Shown in pieces: positions 1-9,980 of a DNA stretch of 28,829 nt (positions are counted from its first letter, which is position 1; every line of letters starts with the position of its first letter). Under the pieces are notes generated by a model. It searched no databases and was not told the origin of the DNA. It was given only the letters and a program-made list of their open reading frames with translations. The stretch comes from a virus, in the IMG/VR virus record IMGVR_UViG_3300021961_005430, positions 1 through 28,829 of that record; one strand, written 5' to 3'. The position numbers and the translations under genes were made by a program.

Positions 1-142
1 TTTCAACTGAAACACGTTCTACATACTCGTTTTTATAAATTTTAGTAGCATAATAAAAGTCACTTTTATCAACTGTTTTGTAGAATGAAAAGTCACAGAA
101 TACGTTGTTTTTTGTTTTTAATACTTCGTTTAATATAGTCAT
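1..142 (-). CDS. small hypothetical protein, 3' end cut by window edge
   Basis: Open frame starting with ATG at 142-140 and running out of the window after 47 codons, beginning MTILNEVLKTKNNVFCDF. An AAAGGT ribosome-binding sequence lies about 7 nt upstream, and a strong sigma70-type promoter (185-212) lies about 40 nt further up, so transcription and translation signals agree. The protein is rich in Lys, Asn, Phe and Tyr, with no recognisable motif. It resembles its two neighbours in size and promoter layout, and is probably one of a set of small early genes. Function unknown. Confidence 0.55.
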   Translation of the reverse strand, partial: MTILNEVLKTKNNVFCDFSFYKTVDKSDFYYATKIYKNEYVERVSVE

Positions 143-184
143 TTTTTTTACCTTTTTGAGTTAATGTTTTATTTTATAGTGCTT

Positions 185-212
185 ATTATACACGTTTTTT
201 ACGAAAAGTCAA
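185..212 (-). promoter_or_regulatory. sigma70-type early promoter for the partial gene at 1-142
   Basis: Minus strand reads TTGACT (212-207), 16-nt spacer, TATAAT (190-185), followed by AAGCAC. It belongs to the window's conserved promoter family (AATGCTTGAC upstream, TGTATAATAAGCA downstream). Confidence 0.8.
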
Positions 213-242
213 GCATTTTCTTCCACTAAAAGCGCTTGACAA

Positions 243-277
243 TCAATGACTTACAACCTCCTTGTGTAAGTCATTGA
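243..277. repeat. perfect 12-bp inverted repeat, hairpin with SD-like loop
   Basis: TCAATGACTTAC (243-254) pairs perfectly with GTAAGTCATTGA (266-277) around an 11-nt loop. On the minus strand the loop reads ACAAGGAGGTT, a full Shine-Dalgarno sequence; on the plus strand it is the anti-SD. It begins 3 nt after the stop of the gene at 280-522. There is no directly adjacent U-tract, so it could be a processing or mRNA-stability hairpin or a weak terminator. The arms belong to a repeat family also found at 1183-1238 and 8459-8592. Confidence 0.6.
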
Positions 278-279
278 AT

Positions 280-522
280 TCAAACAGAAAAACGTAAGTA
301 AAAACGAGGAAAATAAGGAGTGTATTTTGAATGAGTTACTTTAAAATTACGTAAGTTATTGTTTTCACTGAAGTTTTTCAGGTTCAATAACTGTGTTTGA
401 GTTAAATTGTTTAAAATACAGTAAGTTACACGTCTCGAGGTTACTTGTTTTTCACTGTACATTTTAGTTACTACTAAGTTATTGTTTTTAATGAAGTTTC
501 TGATTTCAACGTATTTTGTCAT
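280..522 (-). CDS. small hypothetical protein (80 aa)
   Basis: Unknown function; basic protein rich in Asn, Lys and Thr, starting MTKYVEIRNFIKNNNL, with no motif I recognise. I place the start at 522 rather than at the in-frame ATG at 567: the 567 ATG lies inside the -10 region of the promoter at 559-586, while the 522 ATG follows an AAGAGA ribosome-binding sequence and sits about 30 nt after the predicted transcription start. The stop is followed at once by the hairpin at 243-277. Probably an early, host-directed or dispensable small gene, judged only from position and promoter. Confidence 0.5.
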   Translation of the reverse strand: MTKYVEIRNFIKNNNLVVTKMYSEKQVTSRRVTYCILNNLTQTQLLNLKNFSENNNLRNFKVTHSKYTPYFPRFYLRFSV

Positions 523-558
523 AATTTTAATCTCTTTTTCAGTTAATTTGAAGTGCTT

Positions 559-586
559 ATTATACACACTTTTTTCAATTTGTCAA
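559..586 (-). promoter_or_regulatory. sigma70-type early promoter for the gene at 280-522
   Basis: Minus strand TTGACA (586-581), 16-nt spacer, TATAAT (564-559), then AAGCACTT. Perfect hexamers, and the same flanks as the other promoters of the family. Confidence 0.85.
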
Positions 587-589
587 GCA

Positions 590-805
590 TTATTTCGGCA
601 GGCTGTAAATAACGTCACTACATTCATTTAAAATGAAGCCATTTATTTCACACTCAAAATAGTGCTTTTTTATGAATTCAATAAATGCTAAAAAGTCACT
701 TTTTACATTGACAAGGTCAGCGATACATGAATGAGTAAAAGTATTAAGCAACTCAGCATTTTCAAAATCAGTTAGCGTTACAATTATCAAATATTTTGTT
801 TTCAT
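590..805 (-). CDS. small hypothetical protein (71 aa)
   Basis: Acidic to neutral 71-aa protein starting MKTKYLIIVTLTDFENAEL, with a hydrophobic N-terminal beta-like stretch (residues 4-11), two Cys in the first half of the chain's remainder, and no recognised domain. An AAAAGAGAAA ribosome-binding sequence precedes the ATG, and a family promoter lies at 841-868. Its size, promoter and place match the two small genes further left, suggesting a row of separately transcribed early genes. Function unknown. Confidence 0.5.
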   Translation of the reverse strand: MKTKYLIIVTLTDFENAELLNTFTHSCIADLVNVKSDFLAFIEFIKKHYFECEINGFILNECSDVIYSLPK

Positions 806-840
806 AGTTTATTTCTCTTTTAAGTTATTTTGTAGTGCTT

Positions 841-868
841 ATTATACAGCCTTTTTCTGAAAAGTCTA
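841..868 (-). promoter_or_regulatory. early promoter for the gene at 590-805
   Basis: Minus strand TAGACT (868-863), 16-nt spacer, TATAAT (846-841), AAGCAC. The -35 box departs from the TTGACW of its sisters at one position. It is back-to-back with the plus-strand promoter at 916-943, making 841-943 a divergent promoter region. Confidence 0.7.
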
Positions 869-915
869 ATTGTTTTTATCTATGAAGATAGGGGTTTCAA
901 TAGGCAAAATAATGC

Positions 916-943
916 TTGACTTTTACTGAGATACGTGTATAAT
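916..943 (+). promoter_or_regulatory. sigma70-type promoter reading right into non-coding DNA
   Basis: TTGACT (916-921), 16-nt spacer, TATAAT (938-943), flanked by AATGCTT (911-917) and AAGCATT (944-950). Same design as the minus-strand early promoters but in the opposite direction, with no open reading frame downstream. Confidence 0.8.
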
Positions 944-983
944 AAGCATTATAAACTGAAAAGTGCGGGAACTTCATCAAACC

Positions 984-1070
984 GGAGTACAAGACGGGAC
1001 GGGTGGCTAACTGTCTTGGAAATCAAGCGGTTACAGCACCTTCTTAACATTGGTTCGAGGTTATGCTCCT
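984..1070 (+). ncRNA. candidate structured RNA, tRNA-like but not a canonical tRNA
   Basis: The stretch starts about 40 nt after the promoter at 916-943. GGAGTA (984-989) can pair with TGCTCC (1064-1069) to close an 86-nt domain. Inside it, one alternative pairs CAAGAC with GTCTTG; another pairs GGTG, TAAC and CTTG with CAAG, GTTA and GCACC as a long hairpin closed by a GAAAT loop. A GGTTCGAGG segment (1052-1060) looks like a tRNA T-loop. I could not form a proper anticodon arm with U33, nor a T-stem in register with the acceptor, so this is either a decayed class II tRNA or an unrelated small RNA. Confidence 0.3.
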
Positions 1071-1124
1071 AAGTGCTTGTTTTATATAGCAAATAAAAAA
1101 GATTAAAAAAAGTGAAAAAAGTGC

Positions 1125-1153
1125 TTGACAAATGCGCCAAAAGATGTTTTAAT
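1125..1153 (+). promoter_or_regulatory. sigma70-type promoter reading right
   Basis: TTGACA (1125-1130), 17-nt spacer, TTTAAT (1148-1153; one mismatch to TATAAT), preceded by AAGTGC like other family members. Downstream are only hairpins and repeats. Confidence 0.55.
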
Positions 1154-1182
1154 ACGCACAATGCTCGAGATATGAGCAGGGC

Positions 1183-1238
1183 TGTAAGTCATTGATTTCA
1201 TTGAGGTTTCCGGAAATCGCTTAGATATCAATGACTTA
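1183..1238. repeat. inverted repeat containing a dispersed 20-bp element
   Basis: TAAGTCATTGAT (1185-1196) pairs with ATCAATGACTTA (1227-1238). The first arm lies in a 20-mer (1183-1202, TGTAAGTCATTGATTTCATT) that recurs exactly on the minus strand at 8478-8459. The loop contains a smaller palindrome, TTTCCGGAAA. Confidence 0.7.
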
Positions 1239-1302
1239 GGGGTGTTAGTTAATGTAGGATCTATCTAACACTCCCCTGTGTGAATATGTGTTTGCACAGG
1301 GG
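1239..1302 (+). other. two mutually exclusive hairpins
   Basis: GGG and GTGTTAG (1239-1248) pair with CTAACAC and CCC (1265-1275, one bulged T). The same CCCC (1273-1276), as part of CCCCTGTG (1273-1280), can instead pair with CACAGGGG (1295-1302). The layout resembles an attenuator-type switch, but no U-tract follows and no gene lies downstream on this strand. Confidence 0.4.
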
Positions 1303-1340
1303 CCAGCCCCAGCGCAGGCCAGCCCCAGCGCTGGGCCAGC
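1301..1340. repeat. GC-rich 16-bp tandem repeat
   Basis: GGCCAGCCCCAGCGCA (1301-1316) is followed by GGCCAGCCCCAGCGCT (1317-1332) and a partial third GGCCAGC (1334-1340). The composition is far more GC-rich than the rest of the window, and the units are partly self-complementary (CCAGCGCTGG). Confidence 0.8.
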
Positions 1341-1383
1341 ACAGGAACCTGCTGGGCCTCCTTTCAATCCTATCAACCAGGGC

Positions 1384-1412
1384 TTGACTTTTGGGCTGAG
1401 TTGTGCTATAAT
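1384..1412 (+). promoter_or_regulatory. sigma70-type promoter in the GC-rich island
   Basis: TTGACT (1384-1389), 17-nt spacer, TATAAT (1407-1412). It reads right, antisense to the end of the sulfotransferase-like gene. No ATG-started frame with a ribosome-binding site follows. Confidence 0.65.
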
Positions 1413-1587
1413 GAGCGCTGGGCCTGTGGGGGAATCAGGCTGAGCGTTTTCGGCCGGACGGATTACCTCACCCCATATCTCATATAAGCACGCGGCCACA
1501 CTCCAAGTCTATACGCAAAGGCACCTGGGCGGCCGTATCTGGGCATCTCGACTCACACACGAAAGGCACCTCGGTTAACGCACGCGC

Positions 1588-1659
1588 GGCATCTTACTGG
1601 GCATCTAACATGGCATCTGACTTGGCATCTGACTTGGCAAATTGCTCGGCAGATGATGC
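1588..1659. repeat. 12-bp periodic repeat (GGCATCT-type)
   Basis: Six units start exactly every 12 bp at 1588, 1600, 1612, 1624, 1636 and 1648. The units at 1612 and 1624 are identical (GGCATCTGACTT) and the outer ones are diverged. Read on the minus strand they give 4-residue protein repeats (KSDA, KSDA, MLDA) ending the overlapping gene, and the pattern continues past its stop codon. Confidence 0.75.
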
Positions 1660-2253
1660 ACTTGCGAGTCGCATATATGCGTTAAGGCATTCCGTGTAGT
1701 TTGCTATATAGGCATCTGGGGGGTGTTTACTGACTGTGGTTCTATCTGCCGCTCGTAATAGAGCTGTGTTGAGTTTATTCTCTATAAGATCTACACTGTC
1801 TTCTAAGTATATAATGATTGGATTGTTCTTCTTTATGAATTGTTCTTCCTTGAGAATTACTTGCTTGGTGAGTGCGATATAGTCGTTTATATCTACACTG
1901 AAAGGTTTGATTGTTGGTGGGGCTTTTCCCGGAATCCAATCACCTGTTTTCCTCGCTATAAAATTACTTAAAACTATATCTCTCTTGTCTTTGCGCGTGC
2001 TGAGGATTGGTTGGAATCCTTCCGGGACAGGAAATACAAGGGTGTGACTGTGGATGACTGTTTGCGTGGTCAATTCATCTTTGACGAAAGGTGCCCATAG
2101 ACAATGAGGGCCGGGGTGGATTAGATTACACAGACGGGTCGAACCGGTTCTACCGATCGCACTATAGATATAATACTTATTTGCTGAAACAGGACCATGC
2201 AACATTAATGAATTCGTCTGCCCATTCTGATTTGTTGAGTCCGTATTTTTCAT
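1594..2253 (-). CDS. sulfotransferase-like protein with repeated C-terminal tail
   Basis: 219 aa. Residues 31-42 (SAIGRTGSTRLC) form a P-loop-like 5'-phosphosulfate-binding loop, and residues 87-96 (RKDKRDIVLS) match the 3'-phosphate-binding Arg...Ser segment of PAPS-dependent sulfotransferases. The known family role is transfer of sulfate from PAPS to a sugar, lipid or other hydroxyl group; the substrate cannot be read from sequence. The tail is low-complexity and ends in 4-residue SDA-type repeats encoded by a 12-bp DNA repeat. The ATG at 2253 overlaps the upstream methyltransferase by 77 nt with a weak ribosome-binding sequence; the ATG at 2205 (MLHGPVS) would also keep the fold. Last gene of the minus-strand accessory cluster. 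Confidence 0.6.
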   Translation of the reverse strand: MKNTDSTNQNGQTNSLMLHGPVSANKYYIYSAIGRTGSTRLCNLIHPGPHCLWAPFVKDELTTQTVIHSHTLVFPVPEGFQPILSTRKDKRDIVLSNFIARKTGDWIPGKAPPTIKPFSVDINDYIALTKQVILKEEQFIKKNNPIIIYLEDSVDLIENKLNTALLRAADRTTVSKHPPDAYIANYTECLNAYMRLASASSAEQFAKSDAKSDAMLDAQ

Positions 2254-2758
2254 ATTGAAGATCTTCGTCTGTGTTTTGACACCATTCCCATACGCTGTAT
2301 TTCATATGTAACGTATGGAATTCTTTGCTTGGAGCATAGTCATGCGTCATTATGAAGTCGTGTGCTTTGAGATGAGGGGCGTATAAATGAAATTCTTTGA
2401 CCTTATCGCCGCCATCTGTGAGTAATAGGACTTTCTTGTCAGACTGTAATGCTTGTATGATTTCATTATAGCCTTCACCGTCCCATGCTGATTTTTCTCT
2501 GAAATCGAAGGGAGGAGTAATTCCCATGTGATTCTTTATATCGTAAGTACAAAAGGTAAAGTTATATTCCTTTGACAGCTCGTGTACGTACAAGGACAAA
2601 CCGCCTTCGCTTGTGCCTATTTCAATGACGGTATCGAATTGTTCCTTTTCAAAAAACGCTGGGAAGTAATCGAATATTCTGTGGTTTTGCTGTGTAGGAT
2701 ATCCTTTGTAGATGAATCTGCCTCTACGTGAGCAAGTGTAATTATGATATTTCAACAA
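2177..2758 (-). CDS. class I SAM-dependent methyltransferase-like protein
   Basis: About 193 aa. VIEIGTSEGGLS is the glycine-rich SAM-binding motif I, preceded by a basic N-terminal segment and followed by CTYDIKN (motif II-like acid) and LLTDGG. The overall pattern recalls the cephalosporin hydroxylase/O-methyltransferase type (Methyltransf_24 or CmcI-like), in which small molecules or sugars are O-methylated. The frame is open up to a TTG at 2797, but an AAGGGAG ribosome-binding sequence sits 9 nt before the TTG at 2758, so I start there; this overlaps the upstream EEP-like gene by 17 nt. The substrate is unknown; a sulfotransferase-like neighbour suggests a shared modification task. Confidence 0.6.
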   Translation of the reverse strand: MLKYHNYTCSRRGRFIYKGYPTQQNHRIFDYFPAFFEKEQFDTVIEIGTSEGGLSLYVHELSKEYNFTFCTYDIKNHMGITPPFDFREKSAWDGEGYNEIIQALQSDKKVLLLTDGGDKVKEFHLYAPHLKAHDFIMTHDYAPSKEFHTLHMKYSVWEWCQNTDEDLQYEKYGLNKSEWADEFINVAWSCFSK

Positions 2759-3419
2759 CAGGTATATCTCCCTTCGGTTCGTCAAACCAAGCCTCAACAG
2801 GATGGTGTCCTACATGATTCTCGCCAAGCCAATGAACCTTCTCATATTGTATTGACTTACCGGCTGACATTATCCAAGTCAATACCTGTTTTGGTTCTCC
2901 GGGCTTTGAAAAATTAGCCTGACTGTTTTCTATTTTCGTCCATGGCTGGAAGAAAGGTGATGCGTTATAAGGCATTTTTAAATTACAATGATTAAGATCG
3001 AGATGAGTGTCACCGACAGCAATATCGAAGTCAAGTTTCAATAATTTTATGAAGTAATCTATATGAGAACCTTTCGGTCTAAACGGAGGCAGAAAATTGA
3101 CATAGACACAATTTCTGAATACCATTCGCTGATATATAGTGGATTGTGATTTGTCTTTTTGTGAAATGCTTCCTTTGGGAATCATTTCTTTAACTCGTGG
3201 ATTAGTCTCGAACCTGAGACCTTTTGTTGCTGTCAACAAACCATCGGCATCCTCTCCTTCTGTTTGAGGATGCCACCAAATAACGTACCCCAACTCATCT
3301 CGTATCTTTTCAGCAAGAACAAGAGGACATCTCTGCATATAGATAATATGGTGTGAGCCGTTGAAAATGTCTTTGTGTAAATGCTCGCTGTGATTAGCGT
3401 TCCACGAGATAAGTTTCAT
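2742..3419 (-). CDS. divergent endonuclease/exonuclease/phosphatase (EEP) fold protein
   Basis: 225 aa. It opens with MKLISWNAN, the classic first strand of the EEP fold with the catalytic Asn at residue 7, contains GDTHLD (Asp137, His139; usually GDFN or GDxH) and ends with GHHPVEAWF (His205/206; usually SDHxPV). The family hydrolyses phosphodiester or phosphomonoester bonds in DNA, lipids or nucleotides. The usual metal-binding Glu of the second motif (LQE) appears to be replaced: the matching place reads YMQR (27-30). It may therefore be catalytically altered, or my alignment may be off. Its ATG directly follows the TAA of the 37-aa gene (TAAATG), implying translational coupling. Confidence 0.5.
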   Translation of the reverse strand: MKLISWNANHSEHLHKDIFNGSHHIIYMQRCPLVLAEKIRDELGYVIWWHPQTEGEDADGLLTATKGLRFETNPRVKEMIPKGSISQKDKSQSTIYQRMVFRNCVYVNFLPPFRPKGSHIDYFIKLLKLDFDIAVGDTHLDLNHCNLKMPYNASPFFQPWTKIENSQANFSKPGEPKQVLTWIMSAGKSIQYEKVHWLGENHVGHHPVEAWFDEPKGDIPVVEIS

Positions 3420-3533
3420 TTAATATATCAAACCGTAGGTAATACACCAAAGTTCAAGGAAGCCTCTGTACATAAGCCAACAAGCAAATGCCCCGAGTGT
3501 TGCGTAACTAATACGCCTTGCTGTATCCAACAT
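3420..3533 (-). CDS. 37-aa membrane peptide overlapping the receptor gene end
   Basis: Short frame MLDTARRISYATLGAFACWLMYRG... ending ITYGLIY. A basic N-terminus is followed by one hydrophobic, aromatic-rich segment (about residues 9-37), so a single-pass inner-membrane peptide is likely. The ATG at 3533-3531 has a GGGAG ribosome-binding sequence 8 nt upstream, inside the last codons of the TonB-dependent receptor gene (26-nt overlap), and its stop abuts the next ATG. These couplings fill an otherwise empty gap and are the main support. Function unknown; phages often use such peptides for superinfection exclusion or lysis timing. Confidence 0.45.
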   Translation of the reverse strand: MLDTARRISYATLGAFACWLMYRGFLELWCITYGLIY

Positions 3534-4896
3534 AAAATTGTCTCCCACCGAGTTCATAATTCGGCATAATCTCGTAATTATTATCAAACACATCTTGTAA
3601 TGTGAAGTACCAGTTATTTATACGGTGCGTCAGATCAACTGTGTTTACACCGAGGTCAGTCCATGTCCATGATGCCCACTTGTATTGTATCTTTGCTCTG
3701 TACTCTGCTATGTAAGGTTGATCTGAATCTGTGTAGCCAAGTGTCAACCAATCGTTGCTGTAGCGTAGTCCTTGTGTGCTGTAAGAACCTGTGTTTACAA
3801 ACTGTGCCAGCTCCCAATCGTAGTTTATTCCTTCTTTGAAGTCATATCTAAATGCTGAGAAGTTACCATAACCTATATCAATGCCAATAGACTCCTCTGG
3901 ATCTAACAATGGATTCGCTGCTACCCAAGCATCGCCTTCCATTTCATAGTCAGTAGGACGTCTATAACCTGAGCCAATACCCATTGAAAACTCGTCTACT
4001 TGTATACCTACTCGTGCTACAGCGTGTCCGTCTATTACTCGTGCTGAAAGCTGCAATTCATCAAAGGGCTGATACAGTGCATATGCTTCTTCACCATTGT
4101 TATATGTGACGCCTACAGTCCAGTCATTGTATGTATTACGTGCATCAAAGTACACGTTGTCTGCTTTTGATCGATATGTCTTTTCACCGTCAGCATAGAA
4201 ATCAAGATAATTCCAAGAGTAACCTAATGTAAAGTTATCATTCCTAAATGACAGATTACCGGTTGTTCCTTTCTGCTCACAATCATCGGTGCCCCAACAG
4301 TCATCATAATCGTAACTGTAGTCTGTGATTGCTAATGATATGTGTTCATCTTTGTAACGTGCTGTGAAGTTCTCGTACAGGTCTCGCTCGTTGTTTGTAG
4401 TCATTACAGAACCATTGTCACCATAGGCATAAGAGAGATTAAAGTTCTCTACAGAGCCTGACAGCAGTGCTGAGTCAGTGCCTGCTCGTACGGTGTAACC
4501 TGGAGTGATATTGTCCTCAATGAATACAGTTCCGCCAAGAGAGCCTGAACCATACAATGTACTGTTAGCTCCGTGTGATACTGTCACAAGTTCCTGGCCA
4601 GTGGGAATAATGTGGCCGAAGTCATACCAGCCTGTGCTGGGATCATTGACAGGCATACCGTTACGATACACCGTGGTGTGAATAGTTTGTGCTCCTCGCT
4701 CACGGAAACCAGCAAAACCACCCATACCACCTTGAGTGAATGGCTGGTCAATGCTGATGGTTTCGATAAGAGAGAAGTCTAACTGCGTGTCTGTTGTAAT
4801 ACTATCTGTTACTGAACCTAATACTACAATTTCCTCAATCTGCTGTGCCTGTACTACGGAGGTTGTCAGCAAACCCATTACAAAATACTTCTTCAT
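3508..4896 (-). CDS. TonB-dependent outer-membrane receptor (short form), phage-encoded
   Basis: 462 aa. Residues 1-17 are a signal peptide (MKKYF, hydrophobic core, VQA cleavage site). EEIVV (21-25) is a TonB box. The plug spans about 28-126 with RERGAQ (65-70), YRNGMPVND (77-85) and STLYGSGSLGGTVFI (112-126), all hallmark TonB-dependent receptor plug motifs. Residues 127-462 are a beta-barrel-type sequence (alternating aromatic/polar, many Y, W and N) ending GRQFYVGYSKAY with the terminal aromatic residue used by the BAM complex. It is shorter than usual (650-800 aa), so the barrel has short loops or fewer strands. In the family it imports siderophores, cobalamin or glycans using TonB. Start chosen at 4896: AAGGAG lies 5 nt upstream and the start sits 1 nt after the DUF2061 stop; the in-frame ATG at 4950 would prepend a polar stretch before the signal peptide. 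Confidence 0.85.
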   Translation of the reverse strand: MKKYFVMGLLTTSVVQAQQIEEIVVLGSVTDSITTDTQLDFSLIETISIDQPFTQGGMGGFAGFRERGAQTIHTTVYRNGMPVNDPSTGWYDFGHIIPTGQELVTVSHGANSTLYGSGSLGGTVFIEDNITPGYTVRAGTDSALLSGSVENFNLSYAYGDNGSVMTTNNERDLYENFTARYKDEHISLAITDYSYDYDDCWGTDDCEQKGTTGNLSFRNDNFTLGYSWNYLDFYADGEKTYRSKADNVYFDARNTYNDWTVGVTYNNGEEAYALYQPFDELQLSARVIDGHAVARVGIQVDEFSMGIGSGYRRPTDYEMEGDAWVAANPLLDPEESIGIDIGYGNFSAFRYDFKEGINYDWELAQFVNTGSYSTQGLRYSNDWLTLGYTDSDQPYIAEYRAKIQYKWASWTWTDLGVNTVDLTHRINNWYFTLQDVFDNNYEIMPNYELGGRQFYVGYSKAY

Positions 4897-4897
4897 A

Positions 4898-5119
4898 TCA
4901 CTCCTTAATTGTTGTTTTTCCCCACTGAATTCTGTTCCATACCTGGTCAAAGATATAAAACATGAAGGTGTTTACTATTGCTGCTGCTCCTGCAAATGCA
5001 AGTCCGCCTTGCCAAGAGCCTGTCATGTACCAACCAAAGCCCGCGTTGCTAAATGTAATCCATACTCTCCAGGTAACAAGTTTGGCGAGGCCTCGTTTCT
5101 GTGTCTCTATGTATTTCAT
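4898..5119 (-). CDS. DUF2061-type small membrane protein
   Basis: 73 aa starting MKYIETQKRGLAKLVTWRVW. It has the DUF2061 pattern: basic N-terminus with KRGLAKxxTWR, a first hydrophobic segment (about 20-32), a Gly/Ala-rich second segment (38-58) and a terminal YxFDxVWNRIxWG motif. Members are inner-membrane proteins of unknown role and recur in marine T4-like phages. The ATG overlaps the TAG of the upstream 60-aa gene, and its stop lies 1 nt before the receptor start, so it is co-translated with the receptor. A link to envelope function is inferred from neighbours only. Confidence 0.7.
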   Translation of the reverse strand: MKYIETQKRGLAKLVTWRVWITFSNAGFGWYMTGSWQGGLAFAGAAAIVNTFMFYIFDQVWNRIQWGKTTIKE

Positions 5120-8040: not shown

Positions 8041-8092
8041 ATTAAATGTCCTCCTTAGGACTTTGTTGAAAAACTTTTACTTTATAATGCTT

Positions 8093-8120
8093 ATTATACA
8101 CGAATTTTGCCAAATGTCAA
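8093..8120 (-). promoter_or_regulatory. sigma70-type early promoter for the 107-aa gene
   Basis: Minus strand TTGACA (8120-8115), 16-nt spacer, TATAAT (8098-8093), then AAGCATTATAAA. The flanks AATGCTT and AAGCATT form an inverted repeat around the promoter. Confidence 0.88.
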
Positions 8121-8137
8121 GCATTATTTTCACTTTT

Positions 8138-8371: not shown

Positions 8372-8406
8372 GTTTTTAGTCCTTATCTTCATTGTTTATA
8401 ATGCTT

Positions 8407-8434
8407 ATTATACAGCCTTTTTCCAAAAAGTCAA
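8407..8434 (-). promoter_or_regulatory. sigma70-type early promoter for the 77-aa gene
   Basis: Minus strand TTGACT (8434-8429), 16-nt spacer, TATAAT (8412-8407), AAGCATTATAAAC. Same AATGCTT/AAGCATT frame as the other family members. Confidence 0.88.
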
Positions 8435-8458
8435 GCATTATTTTCATTTATTTGGCCT

Positions 8459-8592
8459 AATGAAATCAATGACTTACAAATCTCTTAGCATTTTTCTCAT
8501 TTATACCGTCATTATACACACATTTGGCCAAATGTCAAGCATTTTCTTTCCGTATATAAATCAAGCACTTACCACTGAGCTAAGTCATTGAT
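8459..8592. repeat. element bounded by inverted 12-bp repeats, with 20-bp dispersed repeat
   Basis: ATCAATGACTTA (8465-8476) and TAAGTCATTGAT (8581-8592) face each other across about 100 bp. The left arm lies in a 20-mer (8459-8478) identical, in reverse orientation, to 1183-1202. Between the arms are a minus-strand promoter and a tRNA D-arm-like string. A miniature mobile element or duplicated spacer cassette is possible; no target duplication was identified. Confidence 0.5.
8511..8538 (-). promoter_or_regulatory. sigma70-type promoter with a palindromic spacer
   Basis: Minus strand TTGACA (8538-8533), 16-nt spacer, TATAAT (8516-8511). The 14-bp perfect palindrome CATTTGGCCAAATG (8521-8534) fills most of the spacer and touches the -35 box, a good place for an operator. 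Downstream only an 8-codon frame precedes the next promoter. Confidence 0.7.
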
Positions 8593-8640
8593 ATTACAGC
8601 GCTTTTTCAACGAGAAATCAAGCACTTACGAACCCAGCTC
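8568..8640 (-). pseudogene. possible decayed tRNA fragments
   Basis: Minus strand 8583-8568 reads TTAGCTCAGTGGTAAG, matching the conserved tRNA position 8-21 segment, but the D-stem is not completed and no anticodon or T-arm follows. A GGGTTCG string lies nearby (about 8635-8628). Both are followed by the same TAAGTGCTTGATTT sequence (15-bp direct repeat AAATCAAGCACTTAC at 8558-8572 and 8615-8629). This looks like tRNA pieces joined to a common promoter-containing spacer. Confidence 0.3.
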
Positions 8641-8668
8641 GAAATCTGGGAGGTTAACAGTACAGTTA

Positions 8669-8676
8669 TATAAATA
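8669..8676 (+). promoter_or_regulatory. T4-type late promoter box
   Basis: TATAAATA, the exact T4 late promoter -10 element, 24 nt before the ATG of the plus-strand gene at 8700. No sigma70-type promoter was found on this strand here, so late, gp55-type transcription is the natural reading. The octamer is not rare in AT-rich DNA. Confidence 0.6.
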
Positions 8677-8699
8677 GTCTATAAAACCAGGAGTTACGT

Positions 8700-9980
8700 A
8701 TGGCCGATGATACTTCATATGCTGAGTCAGCTCAAGCGCTATTTTGTGCTATGGCAGACTATTTAGGCAAATCAGAAACAACAAAGCTAATGGATATAAA
8801 AAAGTATCCAGATCTCGATTCCTTAATGGAAAACAATACACTTAAAAAAGCTATGGATAAATCATATCCTCGAATCTATACCCACTATAAAGGCGGTGCT
8901 AAATTTTCATTAGATCAAATAACAGAATGGTTGGGCGACCCCAAAAATAAAAAATGGTATACTTCTACAGTTCTAATCGCCAAGAAGATGATGGAAGAGA
9001 TAGCCTCAATAGATACAGACCCCAAAGGTAAGTTTAAAAACATTGAGTCTGCAGACTTTCAGAATTTATATTATTTTAGAGGTGATGATGAAGTAATGAC
9101 CAACATAGAAGCACTTTTTAAAATAGCAAATGAGGCTGATGTGGTTGCAGTAGGAGGCACCATGAAGTTCGGTGACGTTAATAAATGGTCGCCTGCTGAT
9201 ATATACTTTGGTAGCACAAAAGCTAAAAATAAAATAAAAGCAACAATAAAAGAATACAGCACACCAAAAATTAAAAAGGCTTTCAGTTTTACAATGTTAA
9301 ATAGTATGATGGGTGATCTTATTGATTCCGGTGATTTACTACCACTATCACTGAAACAAGCTGCTGGTTCAGTAACCATTAAAAAGGTCAACTTTGTGAG
9401 AGCAGAGGAAGAAAAATATATAAACAGCCTGAAAATAACAAAAATTCTCTGGACTCCTTATAAAGTATTGCCTTTTGAAAAATGGCGGGCTATAACAAAA
9501 ACTCAAAGACAGCCAAGAGACCTACAGGTAAAAATATCGGTGGGTAAGGTTACTGGCACATTAAAGTTTAGACATGATCCTTCAGGTATGAAATACTTAG
9601 CAGAGTATATACCTGATAGAGGTAACGCAAGAGAAGGGCAGATAGGTTCAGCTGATCTTATATCTAAGGTTATGGGAACCTTAGATACAACTGCTGCGGC
9701 TAAGTTCAAACGTGAATATGATAAAGCATTCTTAAAATTTAAAGATGAGATGAAAACTTTGACTCCACAAAAACAAGCATTATCTAAAATTAACCCTGGA
9801 CAAGATAACAAATTCAATTGGGCAAGAGGTAATGCGAGTGCAACAACAATAATGGCAGCGACTGGTCCTGTGCTAATGGAATTTTTTAAAAGCAAAAACG
9901 GATTGAAGTTTGCAAAATTAGTATTTGAATATAGCACATCAAGATCTATCGCTTCAGGAAAATTTGTAATAGCTAAGTAA
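8700..9980 (+). CDS. unknown 426-aa phage protein
   Basis: Starts MADDTSYAESAQALFCAMAD after AGGAG (6 nt spacing). The central part contains GDVNKWSPADIYF followed about 55 residues on by GDLLPLSLKQAAG; the spacing of an Asp after Pro and a later S-L-K strand recalls PD-(D/E)xK nuclease-type cores, but the acidic residue before the Lys is missing, so I do not assign the fold. The rest is Lys-rich and helical. It is the first of only two plus-strand genes, has a late-type box, overlaps the NUMOD3 gene by 1 nt, and is flanked on the left by repeat debris. It may be a transferred cassette; function unknown. Confidence 0.6.
   Translation: MADDTSYAESAQALFCAMADYLGKSETTKLMDIKKYPDLDSLMENNTLKKAMDKSYPRIYTHYKGGAKFSLDQITEWLGDPKNKKWYTSTVLIAKKMMEEIASIDTDPKGKFKNIESADFQNLYYFRGDDEVMTNIEALFKIANEADVVAVGGTMKFGDVNKWSPADIYFGSTKAKNKIKATIKEYSTPKIKKAFSFTMLNSMMGDLIDSGDLLPLSLKQAAGSVTIKKVNFVRAEEEKYINSLKITKILWTPYKVLPFEKWRAITKTQRQPRDLQVKISVGKVTGTLKFRHDPSGMKYLAEYIPDRGNAREGQIGSADLISKVMGTLDTTAAAKFKREYDKAFLKFKDEMKTLTPQKQALSKINPGQDNKFNWARGNASATTIMAATGPVLMEFFKSKNGLKFAKLVFEYSTSRSIASGKFVIAK

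Follow-up and report, generated by a model that had tools for sequence, protein, structure and literature searches.

What does a phage do with a long stretch of DNA in which promoters are plain and genes are not? The stretch at 870–1593 is the largest gap between open reading frames (ORFs) of at least 60 aa within the 28,829-base window, that is, the whole stretch of viral DNA analysed here. The window most probably represents part of a T4-like marine phage genome, because its primase is closest to those of Pelagibacter phage Mosig and Methylophilales phage Melnitz (39–40% identity) and because it carries NrdA and NrdB genes. The gene at 8700 is rightward, unlike most of the others in the window, and is preceded by a T4-late-type box (TATAAATAG). 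With about as much confidence as doubt, we read 870–1593 as an intergenic early-transcription locus of this phage, in which a promoter array would make untranslated RNAs within a control region with IHF-type sites.

Promoters and coding capacity of the locus

When promoters were called strictly (no more than one mismatch per hexamer, and 11 of the 12 letters matched overall), 13 were found in the 28,829-base window, ten leftward and three rightward, and the three rightward ones all lie inside 870–1593 (−35 at 916, 1125 and 1384), with none elsewhere in the 28.8 kb. These are P1 (916–943, + strand; TTGACT-16-TATAAT), which belongs to the early-promoter family of the phage, P2 (1125–1153, +; TTGACA-17-TTTAAT) and P3 (1384–1412, +; TTGACT-17-TATAAT, with a TG before the −10). 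The initial annotation had claimed three rightward sigma70-type promoters, and the claim is borne out: each matches at 11 of 12 letters, whereas first-order Markov versions of 870–1593 give an expectation of 0.005 on the + strand, with no single version among 2000 containing more than one such promoter. The strict threshold matters, since a looser scan yielded 18 promoters against 16.9 in shuffles and thus no overall excess. The promoter array of 870–1593 is real, and it is unusual within the genome of this phage.

P1 stands back to back with a leftward promoter (841–868, − strand) that serves ORF 590–805, and it is 84–87% identical to three segments of the other strand (8073–8130, 167–217 and 8394–8444), in keeping with its earlier description as nearly identical to the early promoters of protein genes. 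The family, ATGCTTGAC(A/T)TTT..GTGTATAATAAGCA, belongs to small leftward genes of the phage, and the same box is also present in a relative (L009). Apart from their promoters, the units behind P1, P2 and P3 are not copies of one another. The GC content of 1300–1600 is 55–60%, against near 40% for the genome, and this part holds a GC-rich 16-base direct repeat (1301–1340, +; GGCCAGCCCCAGCGC(A/T)).

Promoters of their own and a lack of coding capacity are both features of phage small non-coding RNA genes, and both are found at this locus, with the proviso that short frames are poorly resolved. In a codon test, the six frames examined within the locus have scores of −0.08 to −0.63 bits per codon and the training genes scores of +0.15 to +0.38, and Pfam and PHROGs searches of the locus returned chance-level matches only and no family, so that the roughly 700 bp previously said to lack a credible gene do lack one as far as frames of this length can be judged. 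The resolution of the test is poor for short frames because two short nearby ORFs that have promoters score just −0.12 and 0.0. These near-zero scores are what would favour short, unannotated peptides as the products of the three transcripts, but we consider that highly unlikely: reading of the sequence revealed no ATG with a purine-rich ribosome site downstream of any of the three promoters, and no protein family matches.

A decayed tRNA cluster, which the initial annotation offered as an alternative, or a decayed tmRNA, would have a precedent in the nearest cultured relatives, since Mosig and Melnitz have tRNAs and a phage-encoded permuted tmRNA behind an early promoter (PMC9004378). That tmRNA resembles what is predicted here in being a non-coding RNA driven by an early promoter, but no tmRNA model matches the locus, although the same Rfam search recovers the Mosig tmRNA as a positive control. 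ARAGORN at its standard setting finds no tRNA or tmRNA at the locus, Rfam (E-value searches included) finds no RNA family there, and alignments of the locus to the two tmRNAs remain at shuffle level. A candidate tRNA-Ile remnant at 1026–1070 aligns weakly (z about 5 versus shuffles), but other segments of the window match tRNAs equally well or better. The decayed tRNA or tmRNA reading is therefore close to refuted.

Predicted transcripts and their folding

Judged by their sequence, P1–P3 would fire, with host sigma70 RNA polymerase starting at the three tandem promoters early in infection and making short rightward untranslated RNAs of about 170, 220 and at least 175 bases. With ends placed by prediction, these are unit 1 from P1 (950–1115, +), unit 2 from P2 (1160–1380, +) and unit 3 from P3 (1419–1593, +), the last of which may run antisense into the gene at 1594–2253, depending on where its 3′ end lies. 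The terminator scan listed none on the + strand inside the locus.

The middle RNA would be the strongly folded one. Unit 2 (1160–1380) folds with a z of −4.17, better than all 200 shuffles, whereas unit 1 (948–1115; z −0.23) and unit 3 (1417–1600; z +0.99) are at shuffle level; the value for unit 2 comes from one sequence, with no homologues for covariation. Hairpins had been announced in each predicted transcript, and this holds for unit 2; for units 1 and 3 the statement carries no weight, because both fold like shuffles. Unit 2 is built as a GGGCTG/CAGCCC stem around three hairpins, and once the first of them is removed, the remainder, 1239–1376, still has a z of −3.0, beaten by two of 200 shuffles; the two further hairpins (1239–1303, +) have a z of −2.8. 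A role as a CsrA sponge was considered and rejected, as the number of GGA triplets, judged by eye, comes close to what the base composition would give.

The small stable RNAs C and D of T4 are untranslated RNAs of a T4-type phage. The RNAs predicted here would be like them in being short, non-coding and derived from a dispensable region that is transcribed early, but the units at this locus have one promoter each and no tRNA gene beside them. The proposal of a phage small-RNA cluster thus survives in part: promoters that lead into untranslated DNA fit it, but unusual structure is confined to unit 2, whose main stem is an IHF-type pair (see below), and neither a terminator nor a homologue was found. 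The RNAs would presumably be stable and act as RNA, in a regulatory or antisense capacity; for a function at the RNA level as such, we hold the chances to be about even. If the RNAs are made, an uncultured T4-like phage devotes three strong early promoters to untranslated RNA, and the locus would be a compact case of this kind.

The most serious rival is gene turnover, because searches by DNA and by the neighbouring proteins, which may have lacked near-identical records, turned up no relative that has the locus; the short BLAST matches of the locus are AT-rich tracts or the IHF-type motif. On this account P1–P3 are what remains of small early genes that lay to their right and have since been deleted or have decayed, and any RNAs still made would be functionless. 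The locus does have small early genes around it, every one behind a promoter of its own, and units 1 and 3 have no special structure, but one would expect the three consensus promoters, which are intact, to have decayed along with their genes, unit 2 is unusually folded and no gene remnant is detectable. We regard such a leftover as unlikely.

IHF-type sites at the locus and elsewhere in the window

The main hairpin of unit 2 (1185–1238) is at the same time an inverted pair of perfect sites for the IHF consensus, WATCAANNNNTTR (PMC4585315). The left half is AATCAATGACTTA (1185–1197, − strand) and the right half TATCAATGACTTA (1226–1238, +), with a total span of 54; the hairpin arm TAAGTCATTGATTTCATTGA, on the other strand, contains AATCAATGACTTA, whose letters conform to WATCAANNNNTTR. 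An isolated match to the consensus, AATCAAGCGGTTA (1021–1033, +), may be due to chance, as 2.8 such matches are expected per window. An imperfect site of the same motif (1070–1082, −; TAAGTGCTTGTTT on the + strand), read by eye and with one mismatch to the search pattern, is suggestive only; it stands 55 bp before the −35 of P2.

Across the window, the motif occurs as five exact copies of ATCAATGACTTA, against 0.0 expected in first-order random sequence, and two of ATCAAGCACTTA, all in the two promoter regions (241–253, 1185–1197, 1226–1238, 8464–8476, 8559–8571, 8581–8593 and 8616–8628). Three leftward early promoters of the window have an IHF-type site at 33, 42 and 41 bp, respectively. The pair at 1185–1238 is placed between P2 and P3; the 150 bp in front of it contain no promoter, and its span of 54 falls outside the helical classes of other pairs.

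Two observations speak against reading the hairpin at 1185–1238 as RNA: in another pair of the window, at 8581–8628, the free positions are a combination of TGAC and GCAC with no compensating change, and the spans of inverted pairs track the helical repeat. A role in DNA is therefore preferred, and the helically spaced recurrence of such sites before promoters in many phage contigs points to DNA-level control rather than an RNA hairpin. A host DNA-bending protein might shape the region through the inverted pair between P2 and P3.

Two further places in the window deserve mention. A second non-coding stretch, 8393–8699, is dense in IHF-type sites and has two strict leftward early promoters; it precedes the rightward gene with the T4-late-type box, which is kept in the relatives L009–L011. 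In a 140-base scan, the strongest local fold of the window was at 141–280 (z about −8, from 15 shuffles only), within which a 13-base perfect hairpin, TCAATGACTTACA/TGTAAGTCATTGA (243–277), overlaps the IHF-type site upstream of a leftward promoter.

Sites of this type could also belong to a replication origin, in which transcripts would act as primers, as they do in T4, and the IHF-type sites would bend the DNA. The locus combines promoters, an A-rich tract (about 1080–1124), inverted repeats and IHF-type sites, a 12-base tandem array follows at 1588–1639, and the same motif is found in a repeat-rich, unannotated 1.5 kb gap of phage Lacusarx. However, the same sites stand at ordinary promoters, the 12-base array is a repeat in the coding sequence of a gene, at its 3′ end, and cumulative GC skew, itself weak evidence, has no minimum at the locus. 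An origin is not indicated here, and a DNA-level site of this sort seems to us decidedly improbable as the explanation of the locus.

The IHF-type motif in other phages and the gene neighbourhood

Many viral contigs (loci L017–L136 and L139–L177) contain a near-invariant IHF-type site, WATCAATGACTTA or WATCAAGCACTTA, both upstream of promoters and as inverted pairs, and the number of viral-contig stretches with the arm TAAGTCATTGATTTCATTGA is at least 120. In the fetched contigs, away from the seeded matches, the free positions of the motif are preferentially TGAC, GCAC or CAAC. Among contigs that came from pattern searches for the motif, with promoters taken as consensus matches, the site stands before a promoter 83 times and after one 12 times. 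Once similar sequences were removed, distances from the site to the −35 fell into clusters of 31–33, 41–45, 52–57, 64–68 and 72–77, and spans of inverted pairs into clusters of 48–53, 58–63 and 70–72. Both series are stepped by about one DNA turn, with a period determined only loosely (a value near 11 fits promoters best, while pairs fit 9.5 to 12 about equally). Outside the locus, this phage and many others have the sites in helical register ahead of early promoters.

The inverted pair was found in eight stretches of bacterial genomes versus 40 of viral contigs. Half of the bacterial pairs (4/8) are in one gammaproteobacterial metagenome-assembled genome, and one belongs to the genome of a Clostridium, which as a group is not known to have IHF; because of this last pair, we only infer from the letters of the sites that IHF may be the protein that binds them.

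IHF sites upstream of phage early promoters are known from lambda pL and Mu Pe. The present arrangement is similar in that a site of the WATCAANNNNTTR type lies upstream of a sigma70 promoter and depends on helical phase; it differs in that the free positions are nearly fixed (TGAC, GCAC) and in that the putative site recurs in many unrelated phage contigs, also as a phased inverted pair. In the literature searched, which lay mostly outside subscription journals, the letters of the motif were not found described as a phage element. Tentatively, and with more doubt than belief, the locus could be part of an undescribed phage-wide control system, in which a near-invariant IHF-type site of 13–20 bases, single or as a phased inverted pair, would be a mark of early promoters in phages that are not related, and at this locus would sit beside new untranslated early RNAs, one of them folding into a four-way junction. 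The motif could help to find early promoters where the host of a phage contig is unknown, and its presence suggests that a host DNA-bending protein is needed for early transcription in many phages. Among cultured phages, Lacusarx (L187, 853–2410) and Slicky01 (L188, 757–2410) have the motif or a near form in unannotated gaps of 1.5–1.6 kb, and the Lacusarx gap is full of GTTAACC-type repeats.

To the right of the locus, the genes at 1594–3419 may be recent arrivals. The 12-base array at 1588–1639 (GGCATCTGACTT, 4.3 copies) encodes a four-residue repeat at the C-terminus of the sulfotransferase-like ORF 1594–2253. Over 1–3000, the GC skew is slightly positive despite leftward genes, unlike in the rest of the window. 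Further on, a phage gene at 3508–4950 (− strand) has a TonB-dependent receptor Plug domain (Pfam PF07715, E 2.4e-10) and shares 77–82% DNA identity with genes in four other viral contigs.
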